NCBI GenBank assembly: GCA_918797485.1
Contig: CAKKNE010000006.1
Coordinates: forward strand, 2,542,001-2,606,000
From: Pelagomonas calceolata
Taxonomy: Eukaryota > Sar > Pelagophyceae > Pelagomonadales > Pelagomonadaceae
Length of the DNA: 64,000 bases
Direction: 5' to 3'
Shown here: in pieces, positions 7,419 through 63,517 of the stretch
Numbering within the stretch: the stretch's first letter is position 1
Layout: each line of letters starts with the position of its first letter
Program-made: the position numbers and the translations under genes
Notes under the pieces: generated by a model
The model's input: only the letters and a program-made list of their open reading frames with translations
What the model was told of the DNA's origin: nothing
Databases searched by the model: none

Positions 7419-7441
7419 GCTAGTGCCTTTCCGCCGCTAGC
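7419..7441 (+). promoter_or_regulatory. CTAG-palindrome promoter element
   Basis: GCTAGTGCCTTTC then CGCCGCTAGC, in the divergent gap between the MRG gene (start 7336, minus) and the PQ-loop gene (start 7702, plus). Confidence 0.6.
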
Positions 7442-7701
7442 CCTACTTTTGCGGCTTGCCGCGCTCTGAACTATTTGAGCAGGCTCCTGCTACCTGCATA
7501 GCCAGCCCCGAGAGGCCAAGCTCTGTGCTCAAGAGTCACGCACTTTTCCTGTGCTGTGGGACGCTCCAGGATTTCGAGCTGACTGCCTCCGCACTGTTTC
7601 GCCTCGGAGCTCGTTCACGCGGCGTCACAAGAAGTCTCGAAAGAAGCCACGGCAGCCAAGGGCCATAGGTGCTACAAACTAGCTATAGGAGAAAGCCAAA
7701 A

Positions 7702-8670
7702 ATGGAGGCGGCCCGCCGCGTCGTCGAACGAGTCCTACGAGCCACCTACCCCTTCGCCACGTATCTGCCCCAGTACTACCTGCTCCAAAAAACGAGCAAG
7801 GAAGGCTTCGCGCCGGCGACGTGTCTGGCAGCTCTACTCGCGCGGACGCTGAGCATAGCTGCCTGGGCGAACGGCGCCCAGCCCAGGGACGCGTCCGCGC
7901 CGGCCGGCGGCGCGCTCGGTATTTTGGTGCAGCTGCTGCTCTTGGACGCCGTCGTGCAGGCGAAGCGCAAGAAGGCCGGCCGGCTCGCGCAGAAGAAGCG
8001 CTACGGCGCGACGACGCGGCAATTGGGACGGGAGGTCCGTGCGGTCATACGCGCGGCGTGCCGCGACCGCGACCGGGAGCTCGCGACGGAGCGGTTCCGG
8101 AAACTATGGAAGGCGTTCTGGGCCTGGGACGAGCTCGGGCCCTACGTCGAGGTCGTCGTCGTCTTCGCGCTTTACTTAATTGCGGCGTCGTGTTTGCTGC
8201 GGTTCCGGTGGTGGCGAACTTTATTAGTGACGGCCGCGGCGGCGGCGGACGCCGCCGCGCCAGTTCCACAAATCGTGCGTATAATACGACGGCGCGACGC
8301 GGCGGGGGTCTCCGCTTTCACCATATTGCTGCGGCTCGCGGGCGGCGTGGTCGGTGCGCGGCTCGGCGCGCGGCCGCGGTTCAGTGTGCTACAGGCGGGC
8401 CTCGACGCGTGCCTGTGCGTGCAGCTCGCGTGGTACTCGCCGCCGTTGACGCGCGTCCGCGGCGTGATAAGCGCGGCGCTCGAGCCGCTCGCCGCGCTCG
8501 CGCGGCGCGGCGCTCAGCGGCTCCGCGCGTACCGGCGGCGGTCGTACGCCCGCGTGCCGACGGGCGAGGCGCCGCCGGCGGCGCCTTCACAACGGCTCGA
8601 GGAGGGCTCCGCGTCGCCGCGGCGCGAGAGCCCGGCCAAGGAGGCGGCGGCCGCCGGAGCGGGTGAGTAG
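7702..8670 (+). CDS. PQ-loop repeat membrane protein (SLC66A2-like)
   Basis: 322 residues from the ATG at 7702 (context AAAATGG); an ATG at 7669 would add 11. Two PQ-loop units are visible: LPQYYLLQKTSKEGFAPATC near residue 20 and VPQIVRIIRRRDAAGVSAFT near 190, each at the end of a hydrophobic segment and followed by more membrane helices. The spacing and the linker (KLWKAFWAWDELGPYVEV) resemble the SLC66A2/PQLC1 group of endomembrane PQ-loop proteins. The C-terminal 80 residues are a basic, Pro-rich cytosolic tail. The substrate is unknown. Confidence 0.7.
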   Translation: MEAARRVVERVLRATYPFATYLPQYYLLQKTSKEGFAPATCLAALLARTLSIAAWANGAQPRDASAPAGGALGILVQLLLLDAVVQAKRKKAGRLAQKKRYGATTRQLGREVRAVIRAACRDRDRELATERFRKLWKAFWAWDELGPYVEVVVVFALYLIAASCLLRFRWWRTLLVTAAAAADAAAPVPQIVRIIRRRDAAGVSAFTILLRLAGGVVGARLGARPRFSVLQAGLDACLCVQLAWYSPPLTRVRGVISAALEPLAALARRGAQRLRAYRRRSYARVPTGEAPPAAPSQRLEEGSASPRRESPAKEAAAAGAGE

Positions 8671-8732
8671 GGATTGGTTTTGTGGTTTCTACTCCTGCCA
8701 CTGCCGGTCCCCAAATCTTGCAGCAAATTCTT

Positions 8733-8757
8733 GCTAGTGTCTTACAGGCCGCTCTAG
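8733..8757 (+). promoter_or_regulatory. CTAG-palindrome element in a convergent gap
   Basis: GCTAGTGTCTTACAGG then CCGCTCTAG. It is one of the best-matching copies of the left arm, but it sits between the 3' ends of the PQ-loop gene (8670) and the Cys-repeat gene (8990) rather than between two starts. No convincing plus-strand gene follows it. Confidence 0.5.
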
Positions 8758-8989
8758 AGATTGCCTACTAGCGACTACTATGAGGCTCGACGGCGTCGAG
8801 GGCGTAGTACGAGGTCTTAGGGCGGTCGGGGGCGGAGCCCGAGCGGTTCAAGGAGGAGGGGAGCCAGCGGTCAAGGGCGGAGTAGGTCCGCGCCGAGCGA
8901 CTCGGAGAGCGATCGTGATGATGGGGGGAATCTGCAGAGGAATTGGGCGACGTGGCCTAGAGCGCCGCGGCGGCGGTGGCGAGGATGCG

Positions 8990-10060
8990 CTAGAAGGCGG
9001 GGGGCACGCCCGCGTCGTCAAGGAACGCCATGGTGACCTCCTTCATGGACGCCCACTTGTTGAACGCGTCTGGATTCGCGGGGAGCGGCCCGTGCTTCGC
9101 GCGCAGCGCGGCGCCCTTCCCGGTCGTGTTGTACCACGTCGCGAGCGGCGCGTAAACCATGTTCACACGGCGCGGCGAGCACACTCCCTCCTGAGAGACA
9201 TCGACCTCCACGCCGCCCAGGGTGATTGGGGCCGGCGGCGGCGCCTCGCCCTTTGGTATTCCGCTCTGCGTTGTTTTGTGCCGGGCCTTGTACGCGGGGC
9301 AGCCCGTACACGTGAAGCAGCACAGCGCGACGCAGCACAAGATGAAGACGAGGCCGCCGCACGCGAGGCCGGCGACGAGGCCGACGTTCAGCTCGCAGCA
9401 GTCGTCCTCGTCCTCGGCGCAGCACACGTCCTTCATGCACTCGAAGTCCGAGTCGGTCGAGAAGGTGCTTCCGGTGATATAGTCGTCGTCGTCGATCGGG
9501 TTGTCGCACGAAGACCGCTCGCCGCAATCCGTGCAGTCCGTGCCACAGGCGCACAAGGACGTCGTAGCCCCAGTCTGTCCGTCGTCGCACTCCCCGTCGA
9601 CGAAATGAATGCACGAGTTCGAGCAGCCTGAATAGGTGTCGGTCACGGTGTAGTCGCACGAAGCCCGCTCGCCGCAGTCGGAGCAGTCCGTGCCACACGC
9701 GCAGTACCAGTTCACACTTCCAGCCTCCCCGTCGCCACATGCCCCGTTGTTGGCATATATGCACGAGTCGTCGCAGACCGAGAGGCGGCGACTCGTCTGG
9801 TCAGCCGCTTCTGTCTTGTCGCCCGCGTCGATGCGACCCTGGCGCTGTATGGCTTGGAACTTGTTGAGGTCCGCCTTGTCTCCCGCCTCGAGGCGGCGAC
9901 GGAACAAAGTCGGCGTCCAGTCGGCAATTTTGCTGGACTCCTCGTAAAAAGCGCCGCACTGTACATCCCACATGCCATTTTTGGCGATGTTGCAATCCTT
10001 GCATGCGGCGGAGGCGCCGACCGCGAGGGCGAGGATCGCAAGGAGGTGCTTCGTAAACAT
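8990..10060 (-). CDS. Type I membrane protein with two Cys-rich DCGxR repeats
   Basis: 356 residues. A signal peptide (MFTKHLLAILALAVGASA) is followed by a small Cys motif and a linker. Then come two tandem repeats of about 42 residues with the pattern CxxxCxxxxNGxCxDG, CxCGTDCxDCGERxSC (near residues 95-140 and 141-185). A Cys-rich stem, one transmembrane helix (VGLVAGLACGGLVFILCCVA) and a cytosolic tail of about 110 residues complete it. The repeats resemble Lin12/Notch-like Cys-rich repeats that are common in protist surface proteins, probably calcium-binding. Divergent from the release-factor-like gene. Confidence 0.65.
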   Translation of the reverse strand: MFTKHLLAILALAVGASAACKDCNIAKNGMWDVQCGAFYEESSKIADWTPTLFRRRLEAGDKADLNKFQAIQRQGRIDAGDKTEAADQTSRRLSVCDDSCIYANNGACGDGEAGSVNWYCACGTDCSDCGERASCDYTVTDTYSGCSNSCIHFVDGECDDGQTGATTSLCACGTDCTDCGERSSCDNPIDDDDYITGSTFSTDSDFECMKDVCCAEDEDDCCELNVGLVAGLACGGLVFILCCVALCCFTCTGCPAYKARHKTTQSGIPKGEAPPPAPITLGGVEVDVSQEGVCSPRRVNMVYAPLATWYNTTGKGAALRAKHGPLPANPDAFNKWASMKEVTMAFLDDAGVPPAF

Positions 10061-10193
10061 AGTTGTGTCTAGTGCGTGGGCAGCCTTAAAATGGCTGTCG
10101 ACGTAGAAACCCGCGAGCTCAGGAGGCCCGGGGCTCGATCGTGGGCAGCCTTAAGCGAGCTTGTTGCCTAGCCTAGCATCAGATTCTGGCGGC

Positions 10194-10215
10194 GCTAGTA
10201 TCTTACTACGCTAGC
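10194..10215 (+). promoter_or_regulatory. CTAG-palindrome promoter element
   Basis: GCTAGTATCTTACTACG followed by CTAGC. It lies between the divergent starts at 10060 (minus) and 10249 (plus), only 34 bp from the plus ATG. Confidence 0.65.
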
Positions 10216-10248
10216 TGGGTTACAGGGCTGGCTCAGTGCAGCGCTGCC

Positions 10249-11046
10249 ATGCGAGCCCTCGCATCTTTCCTCGCCCTGCGCTGCGCCGCGCCGCCGCGCA
10301 GGGTGCTCCTGCGAGCGCTGACGAGTGACGGCGAGAACGTGCACGCGGCCTGGACGAAGGAGGACGACTGGAAGCTCTGGCAGCATCGCGACGACGCTGA
10401 CGTCGCGGAGCTCCTGGGCCGCAAGGCCGGTGGCGTCGCGGCGCGGCTGAAAAAGCTCGAGGACCCGGCGTCGACGGCGGCGAAGCGGCTCTTCGGGGAA
10501 GTGGAGGCGGAGGAGACGATCGACATGGAAGACTACCTCGCGCTGGACGACGACGCGCTGCTGCGCCAGTGCCGAATTGATTACAGGCGAGACTCCGGGC
10601 CCGGCGGCCAGAAACGCAATAAAGTGGAGTCCGCCGTGCGGCTGACGCACACGACGAGCGGCGTCGTGGCGAACGCCATGGAAGACCGGTCGCAGCACGT
10701 CAACAAGCGCCGGGCGCTGCGGCGGCTGCGGACGAACATCGCACATAATGTAAGGAGGCCCGTCGATCTGGATGAGCCCTTCGATAATGATGATGCGTGC
10801 GCGGGCCTGCTGCCGTGGACGTCCGCTCAAAGAATAGGCGCAAAGAGCGCGCTGCGGCCGAGAGCCGAGCAGGCGCTGCTCGACGTCCTCGAGGCTTGTA
10901 ACGGTTCGATCGGCGACGCCGCTACTTATCTGGGCGGCTCGACGGGGCAGCTGTCGAAAGTCCTTACAAAAGACACGCGTCTCAAGGACGCGGCGAACGC
11001 GATCAGAAGAAACTTCGACCTCGGGCCGCTACGCTCACGAAAATAA
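10249..11046 (+). CDS. Organellar class I release-factor-like protein with SANT-like N-terminus
   Basis: 265 residues. An Arg/Ala-rich leader (about 1-25) looks like an organelle transit peptide. Residues about 33-70 (AWTKEDDWKLW, VAELLGRKAGGVAARLKKLE) form a Myb/SANT-like helical unit. Residues about 110-170 hold an RF-1 domain with SGPGGQKRNKVESAVRL. The GGQ tripeptide is the peptidyl-tRNA hydrolysis motif used by ICT1, C12orf65 and release factors. There is no codon-recognition domain, so a role in rescuing stalled organellar ribosomes is likely. The SANT-like fusion is unusual, and its role is unknown. Confidence 0.75.
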   Translation: MRALASFLALRCAAPPRRVLLRALTSDGENVHAAWTKEDDWKLWQHRDDADVAELLGRKAGGVAARLKKLEDPASTAAKRLFGEVEAEETIDMEDYLALDDDALLRQCRIDYRRDSGPGGQKRNKVESAVRLTHTTSGVVANAMEDRSQHVNKRRALRRLRTNIAHNVRRPVDLDEPFDNDDACAGLLPWTSAQRIGAKSALRPRAEQALLDVLEACNGSIGDAATYLGGSTGQLSKVLTKDTRLKDAANAIRRNFDLGPLRSRK

Positions 11047-11069
11047 ATAGTATGTGTAATTAACAGGTG

Positions 11070-13071
11070 TCATAACATGGTCTTCTCGACCACTGGCGGC
11101 TCGTCGGGGTCCTCGACCATCTCGAGCTCCGTCTGCCGCGGCTCCTCAGTCACTACTGGCGACGGCGACCGCCGCACCAAAAGCGGGTAGAGGTGCCGGT
11201 CCAAGCCCTGGAGCATGCGCAAAGGTAACGGCGCGTTCGGCACGCCCGTCGACATAGACGCCGACCGCCGCAGCCGCAAGACGGGCGAGTCGGCCGGCGG
11301 CGGCATCGGCGAGCCGTCCTCCTTCAGTTCGCAGTCGCGCGGAATACCTAAAGCGGTCAGCACGGGCACGGTCAGAGCACCGAGCACGTACATGGACACG
11401 ATGATCAGCACGATCGTGGTCGTCGCGAAGAGCGTGCGATGGTCGTGCGCGTTGGGAAACGTGTGCGCGCAGGAGAAGGCGACGGCGCCCCGCAATCCAG
11501 AAAACCAGAGCATGTGCTGCATCGCCGGCGGGATCTCGCCCGCCGTCGCCGGCTGCTGCTCCTCACGAGCTTCGGCGCGCGGCGACAGCCGCGCGCGGTC
11601 TTCCCGTTTTTCTTCGCCCAGCGGATCGCCCAGCGCGTCCTCGGTGGCCAGCGACTGGGAGAAGGAGTTCGACCGCCGCCGGGCTTGCTCCTTGCGCAGG
11701 CGCTTGTTTATTTGTCTAGATAGCGGGTAGACGTGCGCCGCCCGCCCCACGAGGCAGGCGAGGATGGCCCAGAAGGTCAGGGAGTGCGAGTAGTCGTTGG
11801 TCCAGTCGCGCGTCTTTGCTGGTACCTGTGTGGAAATCAACCAGTGTGTCGCGTGCACGCGGCCGTCCTGGCTCAGTCGAGTGGTGAGGAATCGACACCG
11901 CCACGCCGTCGAGCAGGCGTCGCGTCGATGGCGTGGAGGTCATGATTTCCACACAGGCCGGCACGCTCAATCCGAGGTACAAAAAGATGATCGTGTCCGC
12001 CAAATGAGCCAATGTAGATAAAACGGCATTAGCTACCGGTTTCGCATCGACCGTCGACGAGGATTGTAAGTTCGGCGTCGCCCAGTGCCTGACACCTATA
12101 GCCGCGAACAAGGTCGCCACAATACCTGAAAGCTCGACCAGTTCGGCCAAGAAGGTAGGGGCCCAGATGGCCGCGCAGAGCGTCACGAGTTGTAGAGTTC
12201 GAGACGTGGCAGCAGCGCCCTCGTCGGCGTCGGAATCCGCCCGCAGCATCCTCAGCGTCAACGCCGTGAACGCGGCACAAACACCACCAACTATGGCTGA
12301 ACCAGAGAAAATGACGATAAAATCAGCCACCGCTAAAGCTAAGTTCTTCGCCGTAAACGAATACCCGACGAACTTGCTGAATGTTTTGAACAATACAATC
12401 CCAACAGCGTCATTGAGGACAGATTCGCCGAAGACGAGGTAGAACATTTTTGGATCCACTCTAAGTTCGGTGAAGACGGCGATGACCGACACGGGGTCCG
12501 TTGCTGACACTAGTGCACCGAACGTTAACGTCTCCGCGAAGGTGATGTCCAGCGGAGCTAAATGGCAGACCGAGGCTATTTTGAGCACAATACCTACTAT
12601 CACGGCAGATACGAAGGTTCCTACTACGGCGAACCCTACTATTTGGTAGAACAAGCCAAATAACCACTGCGGATGGAGCTCGTAGCCACTGTAGAAGATG
12701 ACTGGTGGGAGTAGTCCTAGGAAGAACAACGCGTTGTCAAAACCTAATAGCGCACCGCTAAAGAAGCCTCTTTTACCCCTCTTGACGAAGAGTTCCTTGC
12801 ACAAAAAACCAGCCACCATGCCCACTGTTAAAACAACACAAGCCTCCGGTAGCACCTTGCACTTCCACCGATGGGCCAGCACCCAAGATAAAGCTAAAGA
12901 CACCACGATCAGCAAGATAAACGCCAGTAAAAAAGTAGCGTCCTTCTTGCTGTCCTCGTGGTAGCCCCAGGCGTGGTTCGCCAGGTCGTAGATGGGCGTG
13001 CCGCTCTCGTGCCTATCTGTGGCAGCAGCGGCAGTGAGTAGAAGCAGTGCGAAATTGGTGCGCGAGCCCAT
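11070..13071 (-). CDS. Na+(K+)/H+ exchanger, CPA1/NHE family, with introner intron
   Basis: 620 residues after splicing. A possible signal segment is followed by about 12 membrane helices. Conserved ion-path motifs are present: FGALVSATDPVSVIAVFTEL and GESVLNDAVGIVLF (the ND pair), then FLYLGLSV and HMLWFSGLRGAVAFS. The pattern fits the endomembrane NHE6/NHX5-type branch better than plasma-membrane NHE1, though I cannot be sure. The cytosolic tail is about 100 residues and Pro/Ser-rich. Exon 1 is 11965-13071 and exon 2 is 11070-11825. The introner intron 11826-11964 is GT-AG, phase 0, and its removal joins LGLS to VPAKTRDW in frame. The product exchanges protons for monovalent cations and sets organelle pH. 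Confidence 0.88.
11826..11956 (+). mobile_element. Introner (131 bp) in the Na+/H+ exchanger gene
   Basis: The terminal repeats are CTGTGTGGAAATC and GATTTCCACACAG. In the host's sense the target duplication is GTGCCGGC at the 5' side and GTACCAGC at the 3' side (6 of 8 match). The interior carries the same CCACGCC(G/A)TCGA / TCGATGGCGTGG hairpin as the MRG copy but lacks its long right part. The body is antisense to the host. Confidence 0.9.
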
Positions 13072-15615: not shown

Positions 15616-15644
15616 AGTGAAATTCATCAATTCTAACAAACTAA

Positions 15645-18600
15645 TTAGACTATCCGCGGAAGCCCCACATCAGTCACCGGCGGCACCCTTAACCCGCGCG
15701 CCGGCGCGCGCTCGGCCGTCAGCACGTCGGCCGTCGGCGGCGGCTCGGGCGCCCGCGCCTGGAGCGAGAAGACGTCCTGCTTCGCATTCAAGTAGGTCGC
15801 GAGCGTCCGGTCCACGGTCTGCACGACGTCCTCGTCTGAAACGAGTTCATCGTCAAAGTCGCCGTCCACAATACGTGTCGCCGGCGACCGCGCTGCGATG
15901 CGGGGCCGCAGCGGCGCCCGCGGCCGCGGCAATAAATCCTGGGCCTCGCGTCTCGCTCTCTCTCGGGAATCGGGCTCGAGGGCCCAGACCTGATCATGTA
16001 AAGGAGGCAACCCGCGCTCGTTCCGTCTAGCTTTCTCCGCGGCCCGCTTCGCCAGCTTGCCGACGGACGGCCTTAATGGATTCATCATCGCGCGGTCGCC
16101 GGACAGCGCGAGGGCCAGCTTCGCCCTAGCTTTCTCCAACGACCGCCGCTTCCGCCGCGCCGGCTCCTCTATTGCTTTCTTCTGGTCGGCGAGCTTCTTC
16201 TTGCGTAATCTTTCAGCCTTCTCGGCCTTCTGGGCGGCCGCCTCGGCCTCGGCCTTCTCCAACGCCCGTTTCTTCAGCTGCCGTCTTTTATCCCTTTTTT
16301 CAGTCGCCTTGGCCGCGAGCCGCGCGGCCCGCGCTGCTCGTTTGAGGGCTTTCAAACCCTTCTTGTCCTCCTCGCCCTTCACGGTGGCCGCCGCGAGAGC
16401 CGCGCGTCTACGAGTCACCTCCAACTGTAAAGCGTTCGTCGACTCGGGGTCGTCGTCGGCCGACGGATCACTATCACTCCCAGAGTCGCCGCCCACCCGC
16501 GCCGTGTGTCTCCCGTCCTCCTCATCCGAGTCTGATGAAGGCGGCCTTAACACGGACGCGAGGCCGCTCAGCTTCGACTTCTGTAATTTCGCCACAACTT
16601 TCTCGGCGGCCTTCTGCTCCTTCTTCTCCTTACTTTCCAGGGCTTTCTGCTTCGCGGCCTGCCACTTGGCCCGGGTCATTTTTTTACCCTTGGGCTTCTT
16701 CGCGGCCCTCTTGACCACTGGCTTGGGCTTCGGCTCGACCGGCTTCTCGGAGGCGTTCGACGCGTCGGACTGGGCGCCCGGGTCGACGTCGCTCGGTAAG
16801 AATTCATTTAAACCGTCCTCGTCGTCCTCGTCGACGGGCAGTGGTGGAGGCGCGTCCTCGTCGTCTGAGAGCGTCGGGACGACCTTGGGCGTTCCTAATG
16901 ATGAGATGCCGCGCTTCTGCACCCGCAACACCTGCGTGGCAAGCACCCGTGAGTTGCGGAGACCTTCGTCGACCTCCACGCCATTCAGCAGACGCAGTAA
17001 TGGAAACATCGTCGCGTCGATGGCGTGGAGCCTCCACGCCATCGAGCAGACGCAGTTACGTGGACAATATCGCGTCGATGGCGTGAGACGCCCGAAATTT
17101 GATTTCCACGCGGCGTCACACGGCCCGCAGCTCCAGCTCCGCCCGCGACCGCACGGCGGCCGACCGGAGACTTCGGGATAGACCTATGTGCTTGTCCGCG
17201 CGCTTGTCCCGCCGAGCTTGCGCCTTCACGGCACTCCGGGCCGCCTCCGTCTCCAAGACGCCATAATCTAGCAGAGGCGCGCCGAAGGACTCGAAGAGCC
17301 GCGGCTGCACCAAGAACCCGGCCGCGGCGCCGGACCGCGCGGCGCCCTCCTCGGCGTCGTACATGCCACTCCCGTCCAAGTTACAGTAATGATACAACGC
17401 GACCATCAATTGACTCCCAACTAACTGCAGGTCTTCGACCGTGTAGTGGCCGTCCCGCATCCACGATTCCACACATTTATTTCTCAGCTCGACCTCGTCT
17501 CTCGGAACACTGGGCGCCCTTGCTCTATCCTCGACAGCTGCCATGGCTTGTTTTCTAGCGTCTTGTAGGTTTATACCGCTCTTCCTGAAGGCTTCGGCCA
17601 ACCTCTCAGTAACATCGGGCACGGGAGAAGAAGGGTCACTTCTACCTTGATAGCTATCCAGAGGCTCCGTGTCGAGCGACAGAGGTATGTCCGTCAAGTC
17701 CACACTGCGACCATCATTCAATCTACGATCGGCAGCCGCTAAGAGTTGCTGCTCTTCATTATACCCAGGAGAACAGAAGGAGGCTTCCAGTGTAAAGGAA
17801 TTGGCAATGCCAAGTTCCCGCCACGCGACGACCCGACCAGTAGCCTTCTTCGCCGCTTGGACACTAAACGAATTGTCCCTAAATGAATACAACGCACCGC
17901 CAGAAGCCCCAGAACAGGGCGCGGCGCCCGCGGCCCAGGCGCTTCGAGCTCTCTTGCGAGCCGCGCGTCGCTCTGATCTTCTTTCACTCGCCGTCAGGCC
18001 ATCATCGGAGTCATCCGACGACGACGCACAGTCATAGACGGGCCCGCCGTCGCACATTCCATTTAAATTGTTGGCGATGCGAGGGAGCACTCGAGCCAGT
18101 ACCTTGTGGTCATCGGAAAAAGTCCCGTCGCAATGCCCCGCCTCGGCCAAGGGTGGCGGTTCGCCTTCGCCCGACGCGGCCCGCTGCAACGCCTCCGTCA
18201 ACTCTCGGGGCGGTGGTGGTGCCATCTTGGGCTCGGAACAGCCGTAGAAAAAGACGTTCTTCTTTCGCGAGTGGCCGTGCATGTCGCAATAAAACAGGAC
18301 GCCTCGCGTCTCGTGCGTCGTTTTCAACAATTGCTTGATGGCGTAGACTGTGGGCTGCAGTGTGGGAGATGGGGACGCGTACCTCCGATTCAGGTCTTCT
18401 CCGGCCAATGAGCTGCGGTAGTTGCCGTTGATCACACCATCAGGATTTAACATCGGCACGACCTTGAAGACGAAGTGGTCCCGCAGCTTGATCGCGCGCG
18501 GATCTTGCGAGCAGAGGAACTCGATGCAGCCGCGCATCATAAATGATGCATTAGACTCGCCCGGGTGCACGCGCGCCGTCAACACGACGCCCGCCCGCTT

Positions 18601-20124: not shown

Positions 20125-20375
20125 AGTTCATTTATGAGCACGAATGGGGCTGCCCCTGCGCTCGGACCCAGCGCTTTTTGCAAAAGTGCGATGGCACTGG
20201 TCGGTCCAAACCCGAACCGGTTTGTGGGTGAGGTCTGCGCCGGGAGAGGCCATGGGGCAGCGGTCCCAGGACGCCTCGGAGCGGGCGGGCGGCTCCCGCT
20301 CGGCCGGTGAATTTTTGCCGGTTAGGAATCGGCCATCGGCGCGAAGTGCGTACAGTCGCGTACAGTCGCACCACC

Positions 20376-23613: not shown

Positions 23614-23635
23614 GCTAGCGCAGTAAGGCACTAGC
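23614..23635 (-). promoter_or_regulatory. CTAG-palindrome promoter element
   Basis: On the minus strand GCTAGTGCCTTACTGCG then CTAGC. It lies in the divergent gap between 23453 (minus start) and 23723 (plus start). Confidence 0.65.
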
Positions 23636-25643: not shown

Positions 25644-25667
25644 GCTAGCGTGCTGGTAAGCCACTAG
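25644..25667 (-). promoter_or_regulatory. CTAG-palindrome promoter element
   Basis: On the minus strand CTAGTGGCTTACCAG then CACGCTAGC. It lies between the divergent starts 25438 (minus) and 25850 (plus). Confidence 0.6.
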
Positions 25668-28257: not shown

Positions 28258-29307
28258 CTACACATAGCCTAGCGGCACGGCGTCCGCGTCCAAGTCGGTG
28301 ATCGTCTCGTAATCCCAGATCGCGACGGACACAGGTAGAGGAGCGGTGTCGACGTCGAGGACGACGCGGAAGCCGGGCGGAAAGGCCTCTGGACCGAAGG
28401 TGAGGGAGACGCCCGGCGGCGTTCGGTAGCATATGATGCGCTCGTCATCGTGGCACGTCGAGCACGCGTAGAAGACGACCGACGCGACGCGCGCGACGTG
28501 GCACGATTCGAGCGAGGGTAGGTCGGTCATCAGTTGATTGAGGGTTCGCGGCGTCAGCGCCCCGAAGATCGAGGGATCGTAGAGCCGGTCGCCGCACTGG
28601 TCGTCGATTGTGAGTTTCTTGAGGGAGGGGCAGAAGGGCAGCGCGGAGTCCCAGTTGAATTGGGTTCGCGGTCCTACGGCGATCGTCATGGTCTCGAGGT
28701 TCGGGAGGCTCTCCGGCAGCTCCGGAGCGACGTCGGCCTCGAATCGCAAGGACAGATGTTTGAGCGTCGGGTGACCTTCCAAAGGAGAGAACGCGTCGGG
28801 GACGCTCGCATAGTCAATCGTCAGCGAGAGCGTTGTCAGCGGTGCCGCGGCGACGATGGCGCAGATGGACGACAGAAATCCATGGTACTGGTGGAATGCC
28901 ACGAGCGAAGTTGACTCGACGAGGGCCTCCACGCCACGCAGCGTTCTGGGAGCCAACAAGTGGGTCACGATGCTGAGGTCGACGGCGCGCAGGCGCGGCA
29001 TCACTTTGTGAAGCGATGACAGAACATCGTCCCTGACCCATGGCGCGTCTCCCTCGAAAAGTTCGGCGTGCCGATGCGTCTGCGCCGCGAACTCGGCCCA
29101 GGAGCGGTAGTTGCTGGCTCTGACTACGCGCGCGGTGCGGGTCATGTGTCCCCGGAAGCCGCGCGACACCACTTTTACGGCCGCCGCGGGTCGATGAGAA
29201 GCGTGGCGCGATAAGTCGTAGTCCCGTGCCAGGACGGCGTCGTCTTCATACCGCGCCGGTTGCAGGTGCTCGCAGATCGCGAGCAGAAGCTCCTCCGGTA
29301 GCTCCAT
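28258..29307 (-). CDS. F-box / leucine-rich-type protein
   Basis: 349 residues from the ATG at 29307 (an ATG at 29331 would add 8). It starts MELPEELLLAICEHLQP, an F-box-like helix pair that would bind Skp1. It continues with irregular Leu-rich units (LRAVDLSIVTHLL, LTTLSLTIDYA, LKHLSLRFEAD, LKKLTIDDQ) typical of F-box LRR substrate receptors in SCF ubiquitin ligases. No further domain is visible. Divergent from the CCR4-like nuclease gene. Confidence 0.6.
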   Translation of the reverse strand: MELPEELLLAICEHLQPARYEDDAVLARDYDLSRHASHRPAAAVKVVSRGFRGHMTRTARVVRASNYRSWAEFAAQTHRHAELFEGDAPWVRDDVLSSLHKVMPRLRAVDLSIVTHLLAPRTLRGVEALVESTSLVAFHQYHGFLSSICAIVAAAPLTTLSLTIDYASVPDAFSPLEGHPTLKHLSLRFEADVAPELPESLPNLETMTIAVGPRTQFNWDSALPFCPSLKKLTIDDQCGDRLYDPSIFGALTPRTLNQLMTDLPSLESCHVARVASVVFYACSTCHDDERIICYRTPPGVSLTFGPEAFPPGFRVVLDVDTAPLPVSVAIWDYETITDLDADAVPLGYV

Positions 29308-29389: not shown

Positions 29390-29413
29390 CTAGTGTCTTA
29401 CAAGGCCGCTAGC
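29390..29413 (+). promoter_or_regulatory. CTAG-palindrome promoter element
   Basis: CTAGTGTCTTACAAGG then CCGCTAGC, between the divergent starts 29307 (minus) and 29487 (plus). Close to the consensus. Confidence 0.7.
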
Positions 29414-36981: not shown

Positions 36982-37001
36982 GCTAGTGCCTCTTAGCTAG
37001 C
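36982..37001 (+). promoter_or_regulatory. CTAG-palindrome promoter element, short-spaced copy
   Basis: GCTAGTGCCTCTTAGCTAGC, with a core 2-4 nt shorter than in other copies. It lies between the divergent starts 36703 (minus) and 37241 (plus). Confidence 0.55.
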
Positions 37002-41900: not shown

Positions 41901-41921
41901 CTAGCGTAGTAAGACACTAGC
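41901..41921 (-). promoter_or_regulatory. CTAG-palindrome promoter element
   Basis: On the minus strand GCTAGTGTCTTACTACG then CTAG. It lies between the divergent starts 41871 (minus) and 42150 (plus). The close spacing to 41871 (30 bp) favours the later start of the minus gene. Confidence 0.68.
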
Positions 41922-45405: not shown

Positions 45406-45428
45406 CTAGTGTGTCTCGAGACGCTAGC
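45406..45428 (+). promoter_or_regulatory. CTAG-palindrome promoter element, variant core
   Basis: CTAGTGTGTCTCGAGACG then CTAGC. Here the core itself is palindromic (GTCTCGAGAC). It lies between the divergent starts 45192 (minus) and 45479 (plus). Confidence 0.55.
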
Positions 45429-45927: not shown

Positions 45928-46374
45928 CTACACTAATGTACCGCATGGATGAAGATCTTTGGGGGATCGCTTCTTCTTGAGCCAGCACCAGAATCGTTTC
46001 TTGGGCTTGCTTTCGCGCCGCGAATCGCGCGGCACCGGCATCGAGGAAGCGCTGTCGAGGCTATCGAGTGTGGATGCTTCCGCTAGCGAGGCGCCGCCGA
46101 GGCTATAGTCCGCGCCCAACCTCGGGTACTGAAGCGCTGCCAGGCTCCCGTACGGTGGTCGCGAGTTTCGGGGCGTCTCTTGCCCGTTGGCCTCGGTGAA
46201 GAGGGCGTCCGTCAAACCGGAGAGGACACTTGGCGAGATGGAGCCTTGACCTGCGCGCGGACGAGCGGTGATGCACTCCGGCCCGCCGCGACGGCGAGCA
46301 GACGTCACGTCGCGTAGCTTCGGGCGCGGGCTTCTACTCTCATCGTTGGCTTTGGTGCGCTTAATCTCATTCAT
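45928..46374 (-). CDS. Hypothetical Ser/Arg-rich protein
   Basis: 148 residues from the ATG at 46374. The frame stays open upstream to 46740, but that part crosses GA microsatellites and is unlikely to be coding. The protein is disordered, Ser/Arg/Pro-rich, with a basic Trp/Cys C-terminal patch (RFWCWLKKKRSPKDL). Family unknown. Confidence 0.4.
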   Translation of the reverse strand: MNEIKRTKANDESRSPRPKLRDVTSARRRGGPECITARPRAGQGSISPSVLSGLTDALFTEANGQETPRNSRPPYGSLAALQYPRLGADYSLGGASLAEASTLDSLDSASSMPVPRDSRRESKPKKRFWCWLKKKRSPKDLHPCGTLV

Positions 46375-46408
46375 TTCTATTAACGTTGCTAGCGCAACAG
46401 GCCACGGC

Positions 46409-46459
46409 GGAGAGAGAGAGAGAGTACTTAAGCGGTCACGAACGAGAGAGAGAGAGAGC
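46409..46459 (+). repeat. Paired GA microsatellites
   Basis: Two (GA)n runs of about 16 bp flank TACTTAAGCGGTCACGAAC, 35-85 bp upstream of the minus ATG at 46374. On the coding side these are CT tracts, which could serve as a promoter or leader element. Confidence 0.7.
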
Positions 46460-46904
46460 GGTAACTTGATCCAATGCACTGATGCAGCTGCTTGTTTTCG
46501 ACTTCGTTTACACGTTAAATTGATCGCGGGCGTAAAAAAAGTCCTACCGCTTTGCTCCCTGCTTTGCAGTCTGTATCGGCGCTCGTTTGGGCGCCGATGG
46601 CCCGATGAAGAGCCTACATAGGTGGTCGTGGACCTTCGCACGAATCCGCACGGCGAAGGTAAATAGCGCTCCGCAGCCAGTGGAGGCCCCTCGAGTCCAT
46701 TGGTTAGCGCGATAGGCGTCCCGAGATCGGCGGGAGACATGGGGTCTGCGGCGGCGGTTCCCGAGCGTACAGAGCGGCTTTAAGCTCTAAACTTCACTAT
46801 TCGGGGGTTCAGTCGGAGAGGTCTGTTTTCAAAAGCCATCCGCCTAGGCCTGTACACATGTATACATATAGTATATATCCATATATATATATATATACGG
46901 ATTC

Positions 46905-46924
46905 CTAGTGTGTCGATACGCTAG
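46905..46924 (+). promoter_or_regulatory. CTAG-palindrome element, variant core
   Basis: CTAGTGTGTCGATACGCTAG, on the left side of the gene-poor tract and 531 bp upstream of the minus gene starting at 46374. A second half-site (GCTAGCGC) lies nearer that gene, at about 46388. Confidence 0.5.
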
Positions 46925-48376: not shown

Positions 48377-48473
48377 ACGCTGGTACCTTGGAATCAAGGC
48401 GTCGACTCGACGCGGTCAAGATGGAGACAGACCTTTTCTTATTGTCTGGACAGGGAGGAATGAATGCACAGGC

Positions 48474-51525: not shown

Positions 51526-51537
51526 CCGCCGCGCCAA

Positions 51538-53811: not shown

Positions 53812-53835
53812 GCTAGTGTCTTACGTGCCGCTAGC
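53812..53835 (+). promoter_or_regulatory. CTAG-palindrome promoter element
   Basis: GCTAGTGTCTTACGTG then CCGCTAGC, close to the consensus. It lies between the divergent starts 53625 (minus) and 54039 (plus). Confidence 0.7.
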
Positions 53836-55055: not shown

Positions 55056-55070
55056 TAACACATGTTTTGA

Positions 55071-56929: not shown

Positions 56930-57085
56930 GGTCCTTGGTTATTTATGTGGCATCTTGGGCTGCCCAAACGCGCGTGCCAGCGCTGTTGCCGGTCAAGGGC
57001 CGTCGAGGTAGTAACCACTGGGTTCTTAGGACCCAGGGCGATGTCTGGGGCCCAAAACGGCCAGTTTGTGGCGTTGGTACGAAAT

Positions 57086-57107
57086 GCTAGAGCTCGAGTA
57101 CGCTAGC
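57086..57107. promoter_or_regulatory. CTAG-palindrome element, variant core
   Basis: GCTAGAGCTCGAGTACG then CTAGC. The CTAG arms are conserved but the CTTAC core is not. It lies between the divergent starts 56929 (minus) and 57241 (plus). Confidence 0.5.
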
Positions 57108-57240
57108 TCGAGTTCCTGCCCCGTGCGTGATATTGATGGCTTTCCAAGCCGCATGGATTGAAACTGAGCACGAGCATACTATCTGAGGCTGGTGCTGCGT
57201 GCGAAACGCTGCCCCGAGACCCTCACATAGGCATAACAAA

Positions 57241-58326
57241 ATGGCACTGCGCATGGTGCGCAGCGCAACGCAGCATGCGAGCAAGACAATGCGTGCAGGA
57301 GTCTACCACGAATTTGGCGGACCCATCACTGTCGAGGACGTGCCACGACCAATCGCACCTCCAGGCGGCGTAGTGCTCGAAGTGCGCGCCACCGGTGTGT
57401 GCAGAAGCGACTGGCACGGCTGGAAGGGCCACGACGGAGATGTGATTGCGCACGGGCTGCCGTTCACGCCAGGACACGAGGTGAGTGGCGTCGTCGTCGA
57501 GCGCGGCGCGGGAGTAGACCTACCAATCGGCGCACGCTGCGCCGCACCATTCATCCTCTCGTGTGGCTGCTGCCGCGAGTGCGACCGAGGGCGCGCCACC
57601 ATATGCGAGCGGCAGCAGCAGCCCGGATTTACACAGCCTGGTAGCTTTGCACAATACGTCGCGCTGCCGCGCGCGGACCGGAACCTGCGCGTGCTCCCGG
57701 ACAACGTCTCGTTCGAAAGCGCCGCAGCTCTCGGCTGTCGCTTCACGACCGCCTTCCGCGCCGTCGTCCAGCAGGGTCGTCTGCAGGCCGGCGAGACGCT
57801 CGCGGTTTTTGGTTGCGGCGGTCTAGGCCTTAGCGCGGTCATGGTCGGCGCGGCGACGGGCGCGCGCGTCGTGGCCGTCGACCCCTCACGAGCGGCGAGA
57901 GAGAGAGCTCTAGAGCTCGGCGCGAGCTCGGCCGTCGACGCGTCGGAGGGCTGCCGCGAGGCCGTCTGGGCGGCGACGGGCTACGGCGCGGACGTGTGCG
58001 TGGAGTGCTCCGGGGCGGCGCGGGCCGTCGAGGACGCGTGCTATTCTGCGCGGAGGGGTGGCCGCGTCGTGCAGGCCGGATTGCCGTTAGGGGACGAGCG
58101 ACCCGAGGTCCCGATGGCGCGCGTCGCGGGCTGGGAGCTGGAAATCTACGGCTCGCACGGCCTCGCGAGCCACGACCTGCCGGCGATTCTAGACTTAGTT
58201 GCAACGGGAAGACTACAACCCGACGCATCAATCCAGAGACGCGTCACGCTGCAGGAGGGCTGCGACGCGATTGTAGAGATGGACTCCGAATCCAAGCCAG
58301 GCATCACCATGATAGATAAATTATGA
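57241..58326 (+). CDS. Zinc-dependent alcohol dehydrogenase (MDR family)
   Basis: 361 residues from the ATG at 57241. Catalytic Zn ligands are in GVCRSDWHG and FTPGHEVSG. The structural zinc lobe is complete (CGCCRECDRGRATIC), and the NAD(P) loop is FGCGGLGLSAVMVG, followed by VVAVDPSRAARERALELGAS. The C-terminus closes the catalytic domain. The first 16 residues could be a short organelle presequence. The substrate is not evident; the family covers alcohols, sorbitol and threonine. Confidence 0.85.
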   Translation: MALRMVRSATQHASKTMRAGVYHEFGGPITVEDVPRPIAPPGGVVLEVRATGVCRSDWHGWKGHDGDVIAHGLPFTPGHEVSGVVVERGAGVDLPIGARCAAPFILSCGCCRECDRGRATICERQQQPGFTQPGSFAQYVALPRADRNLRVLPDNVSFESAAALGCRFTTAFRAVVQQGRLQAGETLAVFGCGGLGLSAVMVGAATGARVVAVDPSRAARERALELGASSAVDASEGCREAVWAATGYGADVCVECSGAARAVEDACYSARRGGRVVQAGLPLGDERPEVPMARVAGWELEIYGSHGLASHDLPAILDLVATGRLQPDASIQRRVTLQEGCDAIVEMDSESKPGITMIDKL

Positions 58327-58343
58327 GAACATTACCGTCGAGC

Positions 58344-59162
58344 CTAGGGCTTCTCCTTGTCCGCGCCCGCCGACAGCCCCGCCAGCGCGTCGGCCGCCGC
58401 GTCCGCTTCAGCATTTGCCTCCCCATCAGCACCATCTTTAAGGGCTTTCATATGGCTCTTGGCCTTCTCAAACGCCGCCTTGTACTCCTTGGCCCCATCA
58501 GAATTGCCGAAGCGAATCGCGAAGATCGTGTCCTCCAATTCGCCCGACGAGAAGTCCCAGGCGCTCCAGACCCAGGATCTATCAGAACCGACGTTCGGCT
58601 CCAATTCGATGCGCGGGTCCACCACATGGTTGCAGATGATCTTCATCGTCTTCTCCTGGCGCATCAAGACGCGGACCATGCTGTTCTCCCGGTGCTTGAG
58701 GATTTTGACCTCGCCGACACCTCTTTCAATCCACTCCTTCTTGCCACTACCTTTATTGAGGAGCGTCTCGGAAAATCTAAATAATTTAGCGCGGATCTTG
58801 AAATCGACGTCCTCGTCCTCTTCATGTGTTTTGACCTCGACCTCGTCGAGCTGGACCACAGGCGTGAACTCCGCGGTGGACTCCTGGGCCTCGGGGTTCG
58901 CCTGTGCGGAAATCAAATTTCGGGCGTCTGCTCGACGGCGTGACGTTTCCACACGGCGCTCGACCTCGTCCTCCTTCTTGTCGCCCTCCTTTTTGTCCGT
59001 CTCTCCGAACTTCGTAGGGGCGCCGAACAAACCCTGATTACCGGTGTTGAACTCGGGGGCCTTGAAGTTGAAGCCGCCCGACGGCGACGCGACCTTGTCG
59101 GCGAAGTTGCCGAAGGACAGGGCGGGCGCGGGCGCGTCCGCGGCCTTGACCTGCTCGGCCAT
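58344..59162 (-). CDS. RANBP1: Ran-binding protein 1 with short introner
   Basis: 251 residues if the 63-nt introner intron 58902-58964 is spliced, 272 if it is retained, because it has no stop and keeps the frame. The Ran-binding domain shows FTPVVQLDEVEVKTHEE, RAKLFRFSETLLNKGSGKKEW, RGVGEVKILKHRENSMVRVL, MRQEKTMKIICNHVV and WVWSAWDFSSGELEDTIFAIRF, in the order of RanBP1. The N-terminal FGNFADK and FGAPTKFG segments resemble the FG-containing nucleoporin relatives. Works with RanGAP to release Ran-GTP after nuclear export. Confidence 0.85.
   Translation of the reverse strand: MAEQVKAADAPAPALSFGNFADKVASPSGGFNFKAPEFNTGNQGLFGAPTKFGETDKKEGDKKEDEVERRVETSRRRADARNLISAQANPEAQESTAEFTPVVQLDEVEVKTHEEDEDVDFKIRAKLFRFSETLLNKGSGKKEWIERGVGEVKILKHRENSMVRVLMRQEKTMKIICNHVVDPRIELEPNVGSDRSWVWSAWDFSSGELEDTIFAIRFGNSDGAKEYKAAFEKAKSHMKALKDGADGEANAEADAAADALAGLSAGADKEKP
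58902..58956 (+). mobile_element. Short introner (55 bp, subfamily II) in RanBP1
   Basis: The left repeat is CTGTGCGGAAATCAAATTTC and the right is GTTTCCACACGG. The interior is reduced to GGGCGTCTGCTCGACGGCGTGA. The target duplication is no longer recognisable (in the host's sense GTCGAGCG against GCGAACCC). GT at 58964 and CAG at 58902 allow a 63-nt phase-0 intron. Confidence 0.75.
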
Positions 59163-59312
59163 GGTGCTCGCTGTGTCGTCGCTGCGCGTCGCGCGGAGCC
59201 GCAGCGATGGAAGCTGGTTGAAGGAGCGCTCTTCGCGCTCGTTTGCTAGGTCCGCGGTGCCTCTCAGGGAGCACGCCGCGCCAGCGATTTGTGAATCGAG
59301 GCCCGCCGGTCG

Positions 59313-59336
59313 GCTAGTGTCTTACAAACCGCTAGC
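59313..59336 (+). promoter_or_regulatory. CTAG-palindrome promoter element
   Basis: GCTAGTGTCTTACAAA then CCGCTAGC, close to the consensus. It lies between the divergent starts 59162 (minus) and 59709 (plus). The remaining gap (59337-59708) shows no gene. Confidence 0.7.
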
Positions 59337-59708
59337 CCAGGCCTCGCATGGAACGGCGGAGGAGCTCTACCGCCGACGGCTCGCGAGAGGTGGGGCACCG
59401 GCGGCGCGCCCAGGTCGAGCGCCTGGCAAAGCCTGGCAGCGCCTGCCAAACTGGCCGTGCGTCCCGGGCCTCCGAGCGCGGAACGGGCGCGAGGCAGCCG
59501 CCACGAGACGCCGTCGAGCGCGCGAGACGAGCAATCGCAGAGACGCGTATCGGTGAGACCATCATAGAGCTGGGGGCAGCCAGTTGGGCAGCCCAGGCAA
59601 GCTCCAGGCGCGCAGCCGACGCGTAGCGGTAGTTGACCCCCGTCACGCCGTCGCCGCGACACGCGTTGCCGACGCGCCACAACCACCAGAGGCACCGGAT
59701 AGACAAGC

Positions 59709-62678
59709 ATGCCCCGCAAGGGCGCCCAGGCCAAGGCCTTCGCGGCGCAACAAGCCAAGAAGCGCGAAGCAGAGAAGCAAGAGGCAAGAGCGAAGGTCGA
59801 CGCCGAAAAGAACAACGCGAAAGGCATTTCCGAGTGCCGAGATGTAGGGCAATTGATGCGCATGCACCGCGCCAACAGTGAAAGAATAGAACACATGGAA
59901 GAAGCGCAAGAAAAAGAAGCTAAAAGGAAAGAAGCGGAACGCGCCGCGAAGGAAAAGGAGCTCGAGGAGAACCAGGGCAAGTCCTGGTGGGACCGCTTCC
60001 TGCCCAAGCCCAAAGGCCCTCGGGAAGCCACGTCTCCCAACAAGGTGCAGCAGCAGCGCGACAACATCGAGCAATTCTACGACCTGCTGAAGTGCTCGAA
60101 ACATGTGAAACGGGAGATCCAGGCGGTCTTCAAGGCCTTTGACGCGAACAAAGACGGGTCCCTCAACATTAATGAATTCCGGACTTATTTGAAAGAACCG
60201 AAGGAGCGGATGCCCTTCCTCAACAGGATCTTTTTAACGATGGACAACGACGCCATGGACGGCGCCGAGCGCGTCAATACCTATGGTATTGGCGAGCTCG
60301 ACATGTTCGAGTTTTTTGTGATTAACAGCGTCCTTTGCGTCGATGGCGTCATGATCCACACGCAGGTCGGCTACTACTCCATCTGCTCCCTACCGAGGGG
60401 CGACTACGCTATCAGATTTATTTGGGACTTGTACGATCCAAGACGCACAGGTGAAATAGACAGCGAGACGTTCCGGTGCATGATCCGCGAAGGCATGTCC
60501 GCCATGTTACCTGATTATTTATTGCGAGGGGACGAGCCGCTCCCACCGGCCGTCACGGAGCAACTCGAAAAAATAAGAAAGGAGCAGGGCGAGGAGCTCT
60601 GGACAAAATTAAGATATGGGGATGTCGCTGTTCGCACAGATGGCAATGGGGAACGGCATCTAGCGATCGTCAAGGACCACACGGACTACAGTGTCACGGT
60701 CCAAGATATATATAGTCTGGAGAACGCGATGGGCTGGACGCAGTCAGATGACAACACCTTTACCTACCACATGAATCGACACGTCGTCCATGAGCGGGTG
60801 GCGCCGCCGCTGCCCGGTGACGACTTATTCGATGAAGCTTTGGAAAAGTTCATGTTTCTGTCGGCGGACAACGACGGCGACGGGTCGATTACGTTGAAGG
60901 AATTTCGACACTTCATCCGACGACGCGTGGCTTGCGGCGAGCCGTCGCCGTATGCGGCCTTCCTAGCGTTCCAGAAGAAGCTGCGGAGTGTTGGGGGTTT
61001 GGGTGATTCGTTCTGGGACGCGCGGACTTTGGATTTAGCCGTGACGCTGGAGAAGCATGGGTTATGGAGTGCGTGGGAGCTGCATCGGCACTTCAACCTC
61101 GGTAAAATATGTAAACGGCCGCCGCCGAAAAAAGGCGGGGAGCCGCCCTTGCTACCGCCGGAGAAAGGTAAAAATGACGGTCCCGTCGACACGCTCAACG
61201 TCAAGCCGCCGCCGTTGCCCAAGAAGCCGCGGAAGAAGGCCTTGAAGGGCGAGGATCTGATCGACCAGGCGCAAGAAATCGACTTCGCCGCGATGGTCGC
61301 GGCGTCGGGTCCGAACGTCGAACAATTAGTTGCGGAGAACGCCCGTAGGGTCGTCCGAGACAAGCAGGCGCAGGGTGCCACCTTGACGGTAGTGCTACAA
61401 AAAGCGAAGGGTCTCCAACGAGTCAATGGACTACTGGAAGGTCCTAGACCAGATGTTTTTGTGACGGTCGAAGTGGAAAACGAGGAATTATTTACGTCGC
61501 CTTTGCGCTATGAGACCATAAACCCGAACTGGACGACGGAAGAAAATGGAGTTATCGAGGGCCACGCCTTCGACCCGTGCGGCGTGCCCGAAAAGTTGCA
61601 GTTTCGGCTCTGGGATCGTATAAGTGACAAGGAGCGGCAGGCGCTCGGCTTTGCGTTAATAAGGAGAAAGAGGTTGTGGGACGTCTGTACGACGAAGAAC
61701 CGCACGGTTGGCTTGCAGGTGATTGGGCGGATCGGCGGCACGGAGATCCAAGCTACTGGTGAATTGTGGGTGGAGTTGCGGTGGGAGCCGCGACCGTTTG
61801 ATCCCGCCCTCAATATTGACCAATCACCAGATAAATGGCGCCCCCCCACACCGGAGGAGGTAAGGCCAGAAACTCCCATTACCGACGACGAATCTGAGAC
61901 CTCGGAGATGCGGGCGATGCGCGAACTCGAGGAGCAGCTAGCGGAACAGGAGCGGCTCCTGACGCCCGTCCTGAAGCTGAAGAAGCCGGACTTCGAGTAC
62001 AAGCCTTTACCTCCAATAAATGATAATATGATAAGGAAGCCTCAACAAATATGTGCGTGCGGCTTCTCTTGTGGGCTGGAGGTGGACTTTCTACGGCATT
62101 GTCTTGAATGTGAATCGAGGGAAGGCGACACGGTCGACCTGCTGCTGCTGATGCGGACCTTGGATCCTGACGTTCATCGTAAGGAGGCCGCGATCCGCTC
62201 TATGTCAACCGCGCCCGCGCCGTCTCCCATAAACGTCTTGACGCTCGAGGCGGCGACGCCGTCGAAGAAGAAGAAACGCAAGAAGCGGCAAGCTGAGGCG
62301 CCGGCACCAGCAGCTAGAATGGGCCGCGAGTCCTACGACGCCTACCCGGCCGAGATTTTGACCCTGGAAGATATTCCGGGACGGCCCGAGTCCGCGGGCT
62401 TGAGGTTGGACGGGAGCGCGCTGCGGTCGCCCTTCCTCAACGCGCGCCCGGGGTCCTCGCGGCCCGGCACGGCATCGCGGCCCGGCACGGCGAACTCGGA
62501 CAAGTCCGTGACCTGGAAGCTGCCGTCCCTGCCGGCCGTGAAGCAGTCGGAGTTGGGGGAGGTCGAGGACCCGACGGCGTTCCCGGCGCCGCTCGTCGCC
62601 AAGGACGACGGCGTCAAGCCGAAGAAGAAGGGGTGGTTCGGGCGTCGTTCCCGGACGCCACCACGTACGCCACCCTAG
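59709..62678 (+). CDS. EF-hand and C2-domain protein
   Basis: 989 residues. A Lys/Glu/Ala coiled N-terminus (about 1-95) is followed by an EF-hand FDANKDGSLNINEF near 145 and degenerate EF units (FIWDLYDPRRTGEIDSETF). Another clear EF-hand is LSADNDGDGSITLKEF near 395. A basic Pro-rich linker leads to a C2 domain at about 555-690 (TLTVVLQKAKGLQRVNG, DVFVTVEVE, LQFRLWDRISDKERQALGFA). Further on are a small Cys cluster (CACGFSCGLEVDFLRHCLEC) and a low-complexity tail. A Ca2+-regulated membrane or cytoskeletal adaptor is likely. Residues 208-219 come from an introner remnant. Confidence 0.7.
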   Translation: MPRKGAQAKAFAAQQAKKREAEKQEARAKVDAEKNNAKGISECRDVGQLMRMHRANSERIEHMEEAQEKEAKRKEAERAAKEKELEENQGKSWWDRFLPKPKGPREATSPNKVQQQRDNIEQFYDLLKCSKHVKREIQAVFKAFDANKDGSLNINEFRTYLKEPKERMPFLNRIFLTMDNDAMDGAERVNTYGIGELDMFEFFVINSVLCVDGVMIHTQVGYYSICSLPRGDYAIRFIWDLYDPRRTGEIDSETFRCMIREGMSAMLPDYLLRGDEPLPPAVTEQLEKIRKEQGEELWTKLRYGDVAVRTDGNGERHLAIVKDHTDYSVTVQDIYSLENAMGWTQSDDNTFTYHMNRHVVHERVAPPLPGDDLFDEALEKFMFLSADNDGDGSITLKEFRHFIRRRVACGEPSPYAAFLAFQKKLRSVGGLGDSFWDARTLDLAVTLEKHGLWSAWELHRHFNLGKICKRPPPKKGGEPPLLPPEKGKNDGPVDTLNVKPPPLPKKPRKKALKGEDLIDQAQEIDFAAMVAASGPNVEQLVAENARRVVRDKQAQGATLTVVLQKAKGLQRVNGLLEGPRPDVFVTVEVENEELFTSPLRYETINPNWTTEENGVIEGHAFDPCGVPEKLQFRLWDRISDKERQALGFALIRRKRLWDVCTTKNRTVGLQVIGRIGGTEIQATGELWVELRWEPRPFDPALNIDQSPDKWRPPTPEEVRPETPITDDESETSEMRAMRELEEQLAEQERLLTPVLKLKKPDFEYKPLPPINDNMIRKPQQICACGFSCGLEVDFLRHCLECESREGDTVDLLLLMRTLDPDVHRKEAAIRSMSTAPAPSPINVLTLEAATPSKKKKRKKRQAEAPAPAARMGRESYDAYPAEILTLEDIPGRPESAGLRLDGSALRSPFLNARPGSSRPGTASRPGTANSDKSVTWKLPSLPAVKQSELGEVEDPTAFPAPLVAKDDGVKPKKKGWFGRRSRTPPRTPP
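60330..60365 (+). mobile_element. 36-nt introner remnant within the EF-hand/C2 gene
   Basis: GCGTCGATGGCGTCATGAT followed by CCACACGCAG matches the right end of the exchanger-gene introner (GCGTCGATGGCGTGGAGG, TCATGATTTCCACACAG) with small deletions. It begins with GT, ends with CAG before GTCGGC, and is exactly 12 codons without a stop. Either it is an extremely short intron or it is now coding (VLCVDGVMIHTQ). Confidence 0.6.
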
Positions 62679-62792
62679 GTCGAGTTCGGGTGAGGGTTGT
62701 GACTAAGATATGTCTTTGTGTATTTGCCTAACTTACGAGAGAGAACTTAGGAAAGTGGAAACGGCATCTGCGTGCCACGAGACGCGGGCATA

Positions 62793-63386
62793 TCACCGGC
62801 TGCGAAACATATGCGGACATAAATTATTGCCATAGCAAGCCTCAGTGCCGGTACCTCCGAGCCTACGGCCTTGCGCTGTACCGCAGCCCGGTAGTGGGGT
62901 GCCGTCAGCGGCAATCGGTTCACCCGAAGAGTCGTAATTGACGCAGCACGACTGCATAGGCGAAATTGTGCACGCTTCACATATTTGGTCGTAAGCCCTG
63001 GAACCGACGGGGAGGGGTTTGGCGTAGTCTGCGGGCACAGAGACTCCTTCGTCGCTGGCAGATCGCCGCCACATGTTCGAGCAGTTCTGCTGCTCCTCGG
63101 GGCAGGCAGTGCACGTGTCCGAGCAAAAATCCGAAATCTCCGGCACGTCTGGGCTCGCGCACGCGCCAAAGTGGTAGGCATGCTGACACTTTGGGACGTA
63201 AACGCCCCGTTCGCACAGCCCCGGGCCATCCTTCAATTTTGATGGCAATGAAGCGATGGCGTCACTAGAGATTAGAACCAGGACGACGGCCGCGCAGAGA
63301 GCAAATAAGGCGGCCGCCCCTACGATGACGGCGCGCGTCAACGACTTGGGGGCAGGCTCGGCCTCGGGAATTGTTGATTGCTCCAT
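62793..63386 (-). CDS. Type II-like membrane protein with Cys-rich ectodomain
   Basis: 197 residues from the ATG at 63386. A short cytosolic head is followed by one transmembrane helix (AVIVGAAALFALCAAVVLVLI) and an ectodomain of about 150 residues with roughly 17 cysteines (CERGVYVPKC, CSDTCTACPEEQQNC, CEACTISPMQSCC). Family unknown. Probably a surface or endomembrane protein stabilised by disulphides. Confidence 0.55.
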   Translation of the reverse strand: MEQSTIPEAEPAPKSLTRAVIVGAAALFALCAAVVLVLISSDAIASLPSKLKDGPGLCERGVYVPKCQHAYHFGACASPDVPEISDFCSDTCTACPEEQQNCSNMWRRSASDEGVSVPADYAKPLPVGSRAYDQICEACTISPMQSCCVNYDSSGEPIAADGTPLPGCGTAQGRRLGGTGTEACYGNNLCPHMFRSR

Positions 63387-63496
63387 GGCACCGCGTTCCT
63401 TGTGTGGTGGATAATCTGAATGACGATAATGGTAATGGCCTCGCGCTTTCACGAGCGCGCAATGAGCTCGCGCCGGAACTTGCTAAAAAATCCTTC

Positions 63497-63517
63497 CTAG
63501 TGTCTTACAGGGCTAGC
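63497..63517 (+). promoter_or_regulatory. CTAG-palindrome promoter element
   Basis: CTAGTGTCTTACAGGG then CTAGC. It lies between the divergent starts 63386 (minus) and 63588 (plus), 71 bp from the latter. Confidence 0.68.

Follow-up and report, generated by a model that had tools for sequence, protein, structure and literature searches.

Abundant sequence-specific factors with sites before functionally unrelated genes, and also between divergent genes, are represented in yeast by Reb1, Abf1 and Rap1, the Abf1 sites being two-part with a fixed spacing. In animals, the bidirectional-promoter factors NRF1, GABPA and M1BP/DREF use one site between head-to-head genes. Among the stramenopiles, the CCAAT box (NF-Y site) of Phytophthora infestans is promoter-proximal and orientation-neutral, lies mostly no more than about 150 nt from the start codon and is typical of broadly expressed genes (PMC3599244). 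The oomycete core elements INR, FPR and DPEP, with the sequences YCAYTYY, MWTTTNC or SAASMMS, are short, are located at the start site and are strand-biased, with forward/reverse ratios of 1.8-5.9 (PMC3599244).

The promoter element of Pelagomonas calceolata described here, with the full consensus TTGCTAGTGTCTTACAGGCCGCTAGC, resembles the CCAAT box in position, being orientation-neutral (site direction relative to the nearer gene, 13 against 15) and proximal (median of 156 bp to the nearer ATG). Its consensus, however, contains neither CCAAT nor ATTGG, and the element is longer, two-armed, asymmetric and usually present as one copy per divergent gene pair. With the Reb1, Abf1 and Rap1 sites it shares its abundance in the promoters of functionally unrelated genes, but the sequences are unrelated and the spacing of its arms is flexible (6-13 nt), whereas that of Abf1 is fixed. 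The NRF1, GABPA and M1BP/DREF sites are similar in that one site lies between head-to-head genes, without any relation in sequence. Like INR, FPR and DPEP, it is a lineage-specific stramenopile promoter element; in contrast to these, it is 22 bp long, strand-neutral and placed upstream, and its sequence differs from the published definitions when compared by eye. The element is thus outside both the CCAAT and the INR/FPR/DPEP families by sequence, and outside the latter also by its lack of a forward-strand bias. Its behaviour is best read as that of a site for a general promoter-proximal factor, of the CCAAT/NF-Y or Reb1/Abf1 kind, and not as that of a core promoter.

A literature search, which for the published genome covered the main text, turned up no account of this element or of any promoter signal in pelagophytes. 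In the ocean, Pelagomonas ranks with the most abundant eukaryotes. The published genome of P. calceolata RCC100 comprises six nuclear contigs (32.4 Mb) together with the plastid and the mitochondrion, at 63.6% GC and with 16,667 genes, and the main text of that paper contains neither 'motif' nor 'promoter' (PMC9481584).

Results

The assembly scanned here (32,445,274 bases in 8 contigs, 63.7% GC) contains 4,116 matches to CTAGTGN{4,14}CGCTAG, compared with 43 for the reversed control, and 2,214 matches to CTAGTGTCTTACN{0,10}GCTAG, compared with 0 for its reversed control. The element is real and genome-wide, and the 4,116 copies are divided equally between the strands (2,079/2,037). A two-arm matrix (score of 18 or more) was applied to 224 kb, made up of the window, i.e. 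the whole 64-kb stretch analysed (C6:2542001-2606000), and four 40-kb blocks from contigs 1, 2, 3 and 5; it finds 44 sites versus 0.7 in Markov-simulated sequence. This density of about one site per 5 kb would, by extrapolation, scale to some 6,000 copies in the genome. It is also denser than the usual spacing of replication origins, and although intergenic, gene-start-linked origins are known in compact genomes, an origin (ORC) binding site that happens to fall in promoters is a very improbable identity for the element. A search of viral contigs gave no exact match. The tetranucleotide CTAG is scarce across the window (132 observed versus 214 expected from base composition), so that an element bounded by CTAG stands out more.

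Alignment of 68 copies yields the consensus TTGCTAGTG - TCTTACAGGC - CGCTAGC. The flanks of these copies are unrelated, conservation ending about 4 bp outside the element. The core starts with TCTTAC in about half of the copies, with TGTTAC and TGTC as variants, and the distance between the arms is mostly 10 nt (76 of 140 copies with intact arms; 9 nt in 24, 8 nt in 14, 11 nt in 14 and 6 nt in 6). The perfect palindrome CTAGCG..CGCTAG occurs at 50 places in the genome versus 79 in the control, which is background, and CTAGTG..CACTAG occurs at 137 versus 12, as compared with the 4,116 copies of the asymmetric form. The rarity of both perfect palindromes means that one arm requires its T and the other its C: the arms are obligately asymmetric, and the near-palindrome must be imperfect. 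This requirement, and the counts behind it, argue against a site for a symmetric dimer, which is disfavoured. The same counts bear on a structured RNA, in which a 7-bp hairpin, GCUAGUG/CGCUAGC, would act in the transcript. The arms can indeed pair on one strand with G-U wobble, but the perfectly paired form is at background, arm substitutions nearly always break the pairing, compensatory changes are absent and both orientations are equally used; as the genome makes no use of perfectly pairing arms, the hairpin is to all intents excluded.

The copies in the window are collected in Table 1. All 15 places listed in the earlier note carry the element or a decayed form of it, to varying degree, but the literal GCTAGTGTCTTAC is present at four only (8733, 41909 on the minus strand, 53812 and 59313), the other places being variants of the consensus. 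For the estimate that about 13 of 17 divergent gaps carry a copy, a strict count gives 9 of 16 called divergent gaps, or about 12 of 17 when the weak copies at 709 and 36983 are added, together with that at 63497 if the ORF 62793-63452(-) is real. By our own gene calls, the copy at 8733 is in a convergent gap and those at 45406 and 46905 are in tandem gaps.

Table 1. Copies of the two-armed CTAG element in the 64-kb window, with gap classes from our own gene calls.
Position	Strand	Form	Gap	Matrix score	Distances to ATGs (bp)	Neighbouring genes
709..727	-	Decayed, right arm lost		16.8 (near background)		
7420..7440	+	CTAG element	Divergent	33.9	83/261	
8734..8757	+	CTAG element, damaged right arm (CTCTAGA)	Convergent	32.7		
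10195..10214	+	CTAG element, CTAGTA variant	Divergent	27.0	134/34	
23615..23634	-	CTAG element	Divergent	35.5	161/88	
25645..25667	-	CTAG element	Divergent	28.8	206/182	
29390..29412	+	CTAG element	Divergent	31.7	82/74	
36983..37000	+	Weak copy	Divergent	14.7		
41901..41920	-	CTAG element	Divergent	34.2	29/229	
45406..45427	+	Variant core (TGTC)	Tandem	29.8	213	Upstream of minus-strand actin-family gene (Pfam Actin)
46905..46924	+	Variant core (TGTCGATA)	Tandem	23.5		Upstream of ORF 45928-46740(-)
53813..53834	+	CTAG element	Divergent	36.5	187/204	
57087..57106	+	Variant (CTAGAG, core CTCGAGTA)	Divergent	19.6	157/182	
59314..59335	+	CTAG element	Divergent	33.6	151/373	RanBP1 gene / EF-hand gene (Pfam)
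63497..63516	+	CTAG element	Divergent if ORF 62793-63452(-) is a real gene	31.4	71	Upstream of rhodanese-domain ORF (Pfam)

Placement was assessed over the 224 kb with gene calls from our own codon-based gene finder rather than from the published annotation. The share of gaps with a site is 27/47 for divergent, 10/43 for tandem and 1/46 for convergent neighbours, and none of 15 introns has one (divergent versus convergent, Fisher p=1.4e-9; divergent versus tandem, p=0.0013), and 169 kb of coding DNA contains two borderline matches, with scores of 18.0 and 18.9. This bears out the claim, made from the window, that the element is enriched relative to coding DNA and convergent gaps. The companion claim, that tandem gaps have almost none, does not hold. 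In an independent second sample, 30 sites with exact arms taken from the beginning of contig 1, 12 are divergent, 14 tandem and 1 convergent, with 3 unresolved, so that tandem sites make up 14 of the 27 classified. Counted per gene start, the frequencies are about equal (28/94 or 0.30 for divergent and 11/43 or 0.26 for tandem starts), and the element therefore marks gene starts in general. The genes flanking it include those for RanBP1, actin, a release factor, DnaJ, an epimerase and a tRNA-editing-like protein, among others, with no evident common function. The distance to the nearer ATG is 110-220 bp for 23 of the 28 sites in divergent gaps, a spread of about 100 bp. A search upstream of genes for a second, start-site-like element gave nothing clear.

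Divergent gaps are distinctive in that they contain two starts but as a rule a single copy, placed centrally. The excess of divergent over tandem gaps with a site (57% versus 23%) is in fact not far from the expectation for two independent starts per gap, and a special divergent role consequently rests on the single-copy rule and on the central placement. One gap of the 47 has two copies, where about 6 would be expected from independent placement (P=0.0006), and the site is central within the gap (KS p=2e-5). A single, orientation-neutral, central copy fits one element serving two genes.

These features also bear on two further explanations, the first of which, as the main rival, is that the element is a chromatin boundary or insulator (CTCF- or BEAF-like) which separates neighbouring promoters without activating them. 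One copy midway between two starts would suit such a role, as would the tandem-gap copies, which are often near the 3' end of the upstream gene; in these gaps, however, the copy is more tightly positioned relative to the gene start, and about 20 of the 47 divergent gaps have no copy at all, which makes an insulator unlikely. A bidirectional core promoter element, itself setting both transcription starts, is consistent with a central site in short divergent gaps (median length of 365 bp with a site versus 537 bp without). It is distinctly more doubtful, given that the element is without orientation bias, unlike the oomycete INR, FPR and DPEP (PMC3599244), is also found upstream of single tandem genes and varies in its distance from the ATG. 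Of the two functions proposed in the earlier note, the bidirectional core promoter is accordingly not supported, whereas a binding site for an abundant factor is, by the copy number, the tight placement before genes, the equal use of both orientations and the conservation in a related species.

When prokaryote genomes were scanned, the element turned up in a marine MAG that bears the label Spirochaeta sp. MED672 (GTDB). In all, 10 contigs of that scan carried it, of which L047, L048 and L053, as well as pieces of L049, L058, L059 and L060, match the genome of Pelagomonas; the matches in L050, L054, L055 and L056 look like chance. Over 7.8 kb, contig L047 of MED672 shares 82% identity with P. 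calceolata C6:477195-485026, and pieces of three other contigs match at 78-86%. MED672 therefore includes contigs from a related pelagophyte, those concerned (L047, L049, L051 and L058-L060) being nuclear pelagophyte DNA with 78-86% identity to Pelagomonas. The MED672 MAG is, in other words, contaminated with nuclear DNA of a Pelagomonas relative. Two contigs of other MAGs, L048 and L053, have partial-length matches to Pelagomonas at 90-96%.

The comparison with another pelagophyte, as the earlier note had proposed, shows the element to be kept in both species at all five orthologous loci compared, with unchanged orientation and 60 of 60 arm bases identical, within flanks (90-100 bp) that have diverged to 43-84% identity. 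At one of these loci the core and its length have changed (TGTCGTGC versus TCTTACATGA) and the arms have not. As the contigs were found via the motif, this test is one-sided, and its five loci are a small number; what was free to differ in P. calceolata was the presence, the orientation and the exact arms of the element. A divergent gap without a site in MED672 (L047:3826-4370) is site-free in P. calceolata too. On L051, a tandem gene array has one copy in the same orientation before each successive gene (462, 2199, 4291 and 5353).

Orthologous conservation also tells against an origin of the element in mobile DNA. A footprint of transposon insertion or excision, with CTAG...CTAG as the target duplication, would account for the CTAG at both ends and for thousands of dispersed copies, but most left halves have the right half within a few bases (1,741 left halves, as compared with 1,529 full two-arm copies counted with a slightly looser inner pattern), the flanks are unrelated and the placement is fixed to gene starts, and the footprint is scarcely credible. 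An introner element or transposon remnant was likewise rejected on the basis of the unrelated flanks beyond about 4 bp, the absence from all 15 introns and the conservation at orthologous loci.

Discussion

The element is probably a promoter-proximal site for one abundant sequence-specific factor that activates or opens promoters in either direction; from its copy number, its position before genes and its conservation in a related species, a landing site for a general gene-switching protein is the likeliest identity. Such a factor would read a pair of half-sites, GCTAGTG and CGCTAGC, that are related yet unequal and that flank the TCTTAC core, with some tolerance in their spacing. Bound mostly 110-220 bp before the start codon, it may keep the promoter nucleosome-free or recruit activators, and in a head-to-head gap one copy in the middle could serve both genes because the element would work in both orientations. 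A bolder generalization, which we put forward tentatively and at somewhat less than even confidence, is that a large share of pelagophyte genes is run by a lineage-specific, obligately asymmetric two-half-site element that forms a single shared bidirectional control point and is bound by a general regulatory factor whose class of DNA-binding proteins is not known to use such sites.

In practical terms, a strict 22-bp signal present in about half of the divergent gaps could be used as bait in a factor pull-down, lets promoters be annotated from sequence alone and can inform the design of expression vectors. With it one could also test cleanly whether a shared site is what maintains the head-to-head order of genes.

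Other recurrent sequences were observed as well. TCGATGGCGT is strongly over-represented in upstream DNA, partly as a minisatellite, and is found in L045 at ~8364-8630 (C5 block 28364-28630) and at many places in the window (2055, 6522 and 17017-17075 among them). GGGGCAGCCC/GGGGCTGCCC is over-represented upstream of genes, as at 20146 and 33502 of the window and in other blocks. An identical 22-mer, CTAGTGAGTTTTGCGCCACTAG, recurs on C1 (1196660, 2231511, 2722326, 2884445 and 3004753, among other positions) and is probably part of a separate dispersed repeat.
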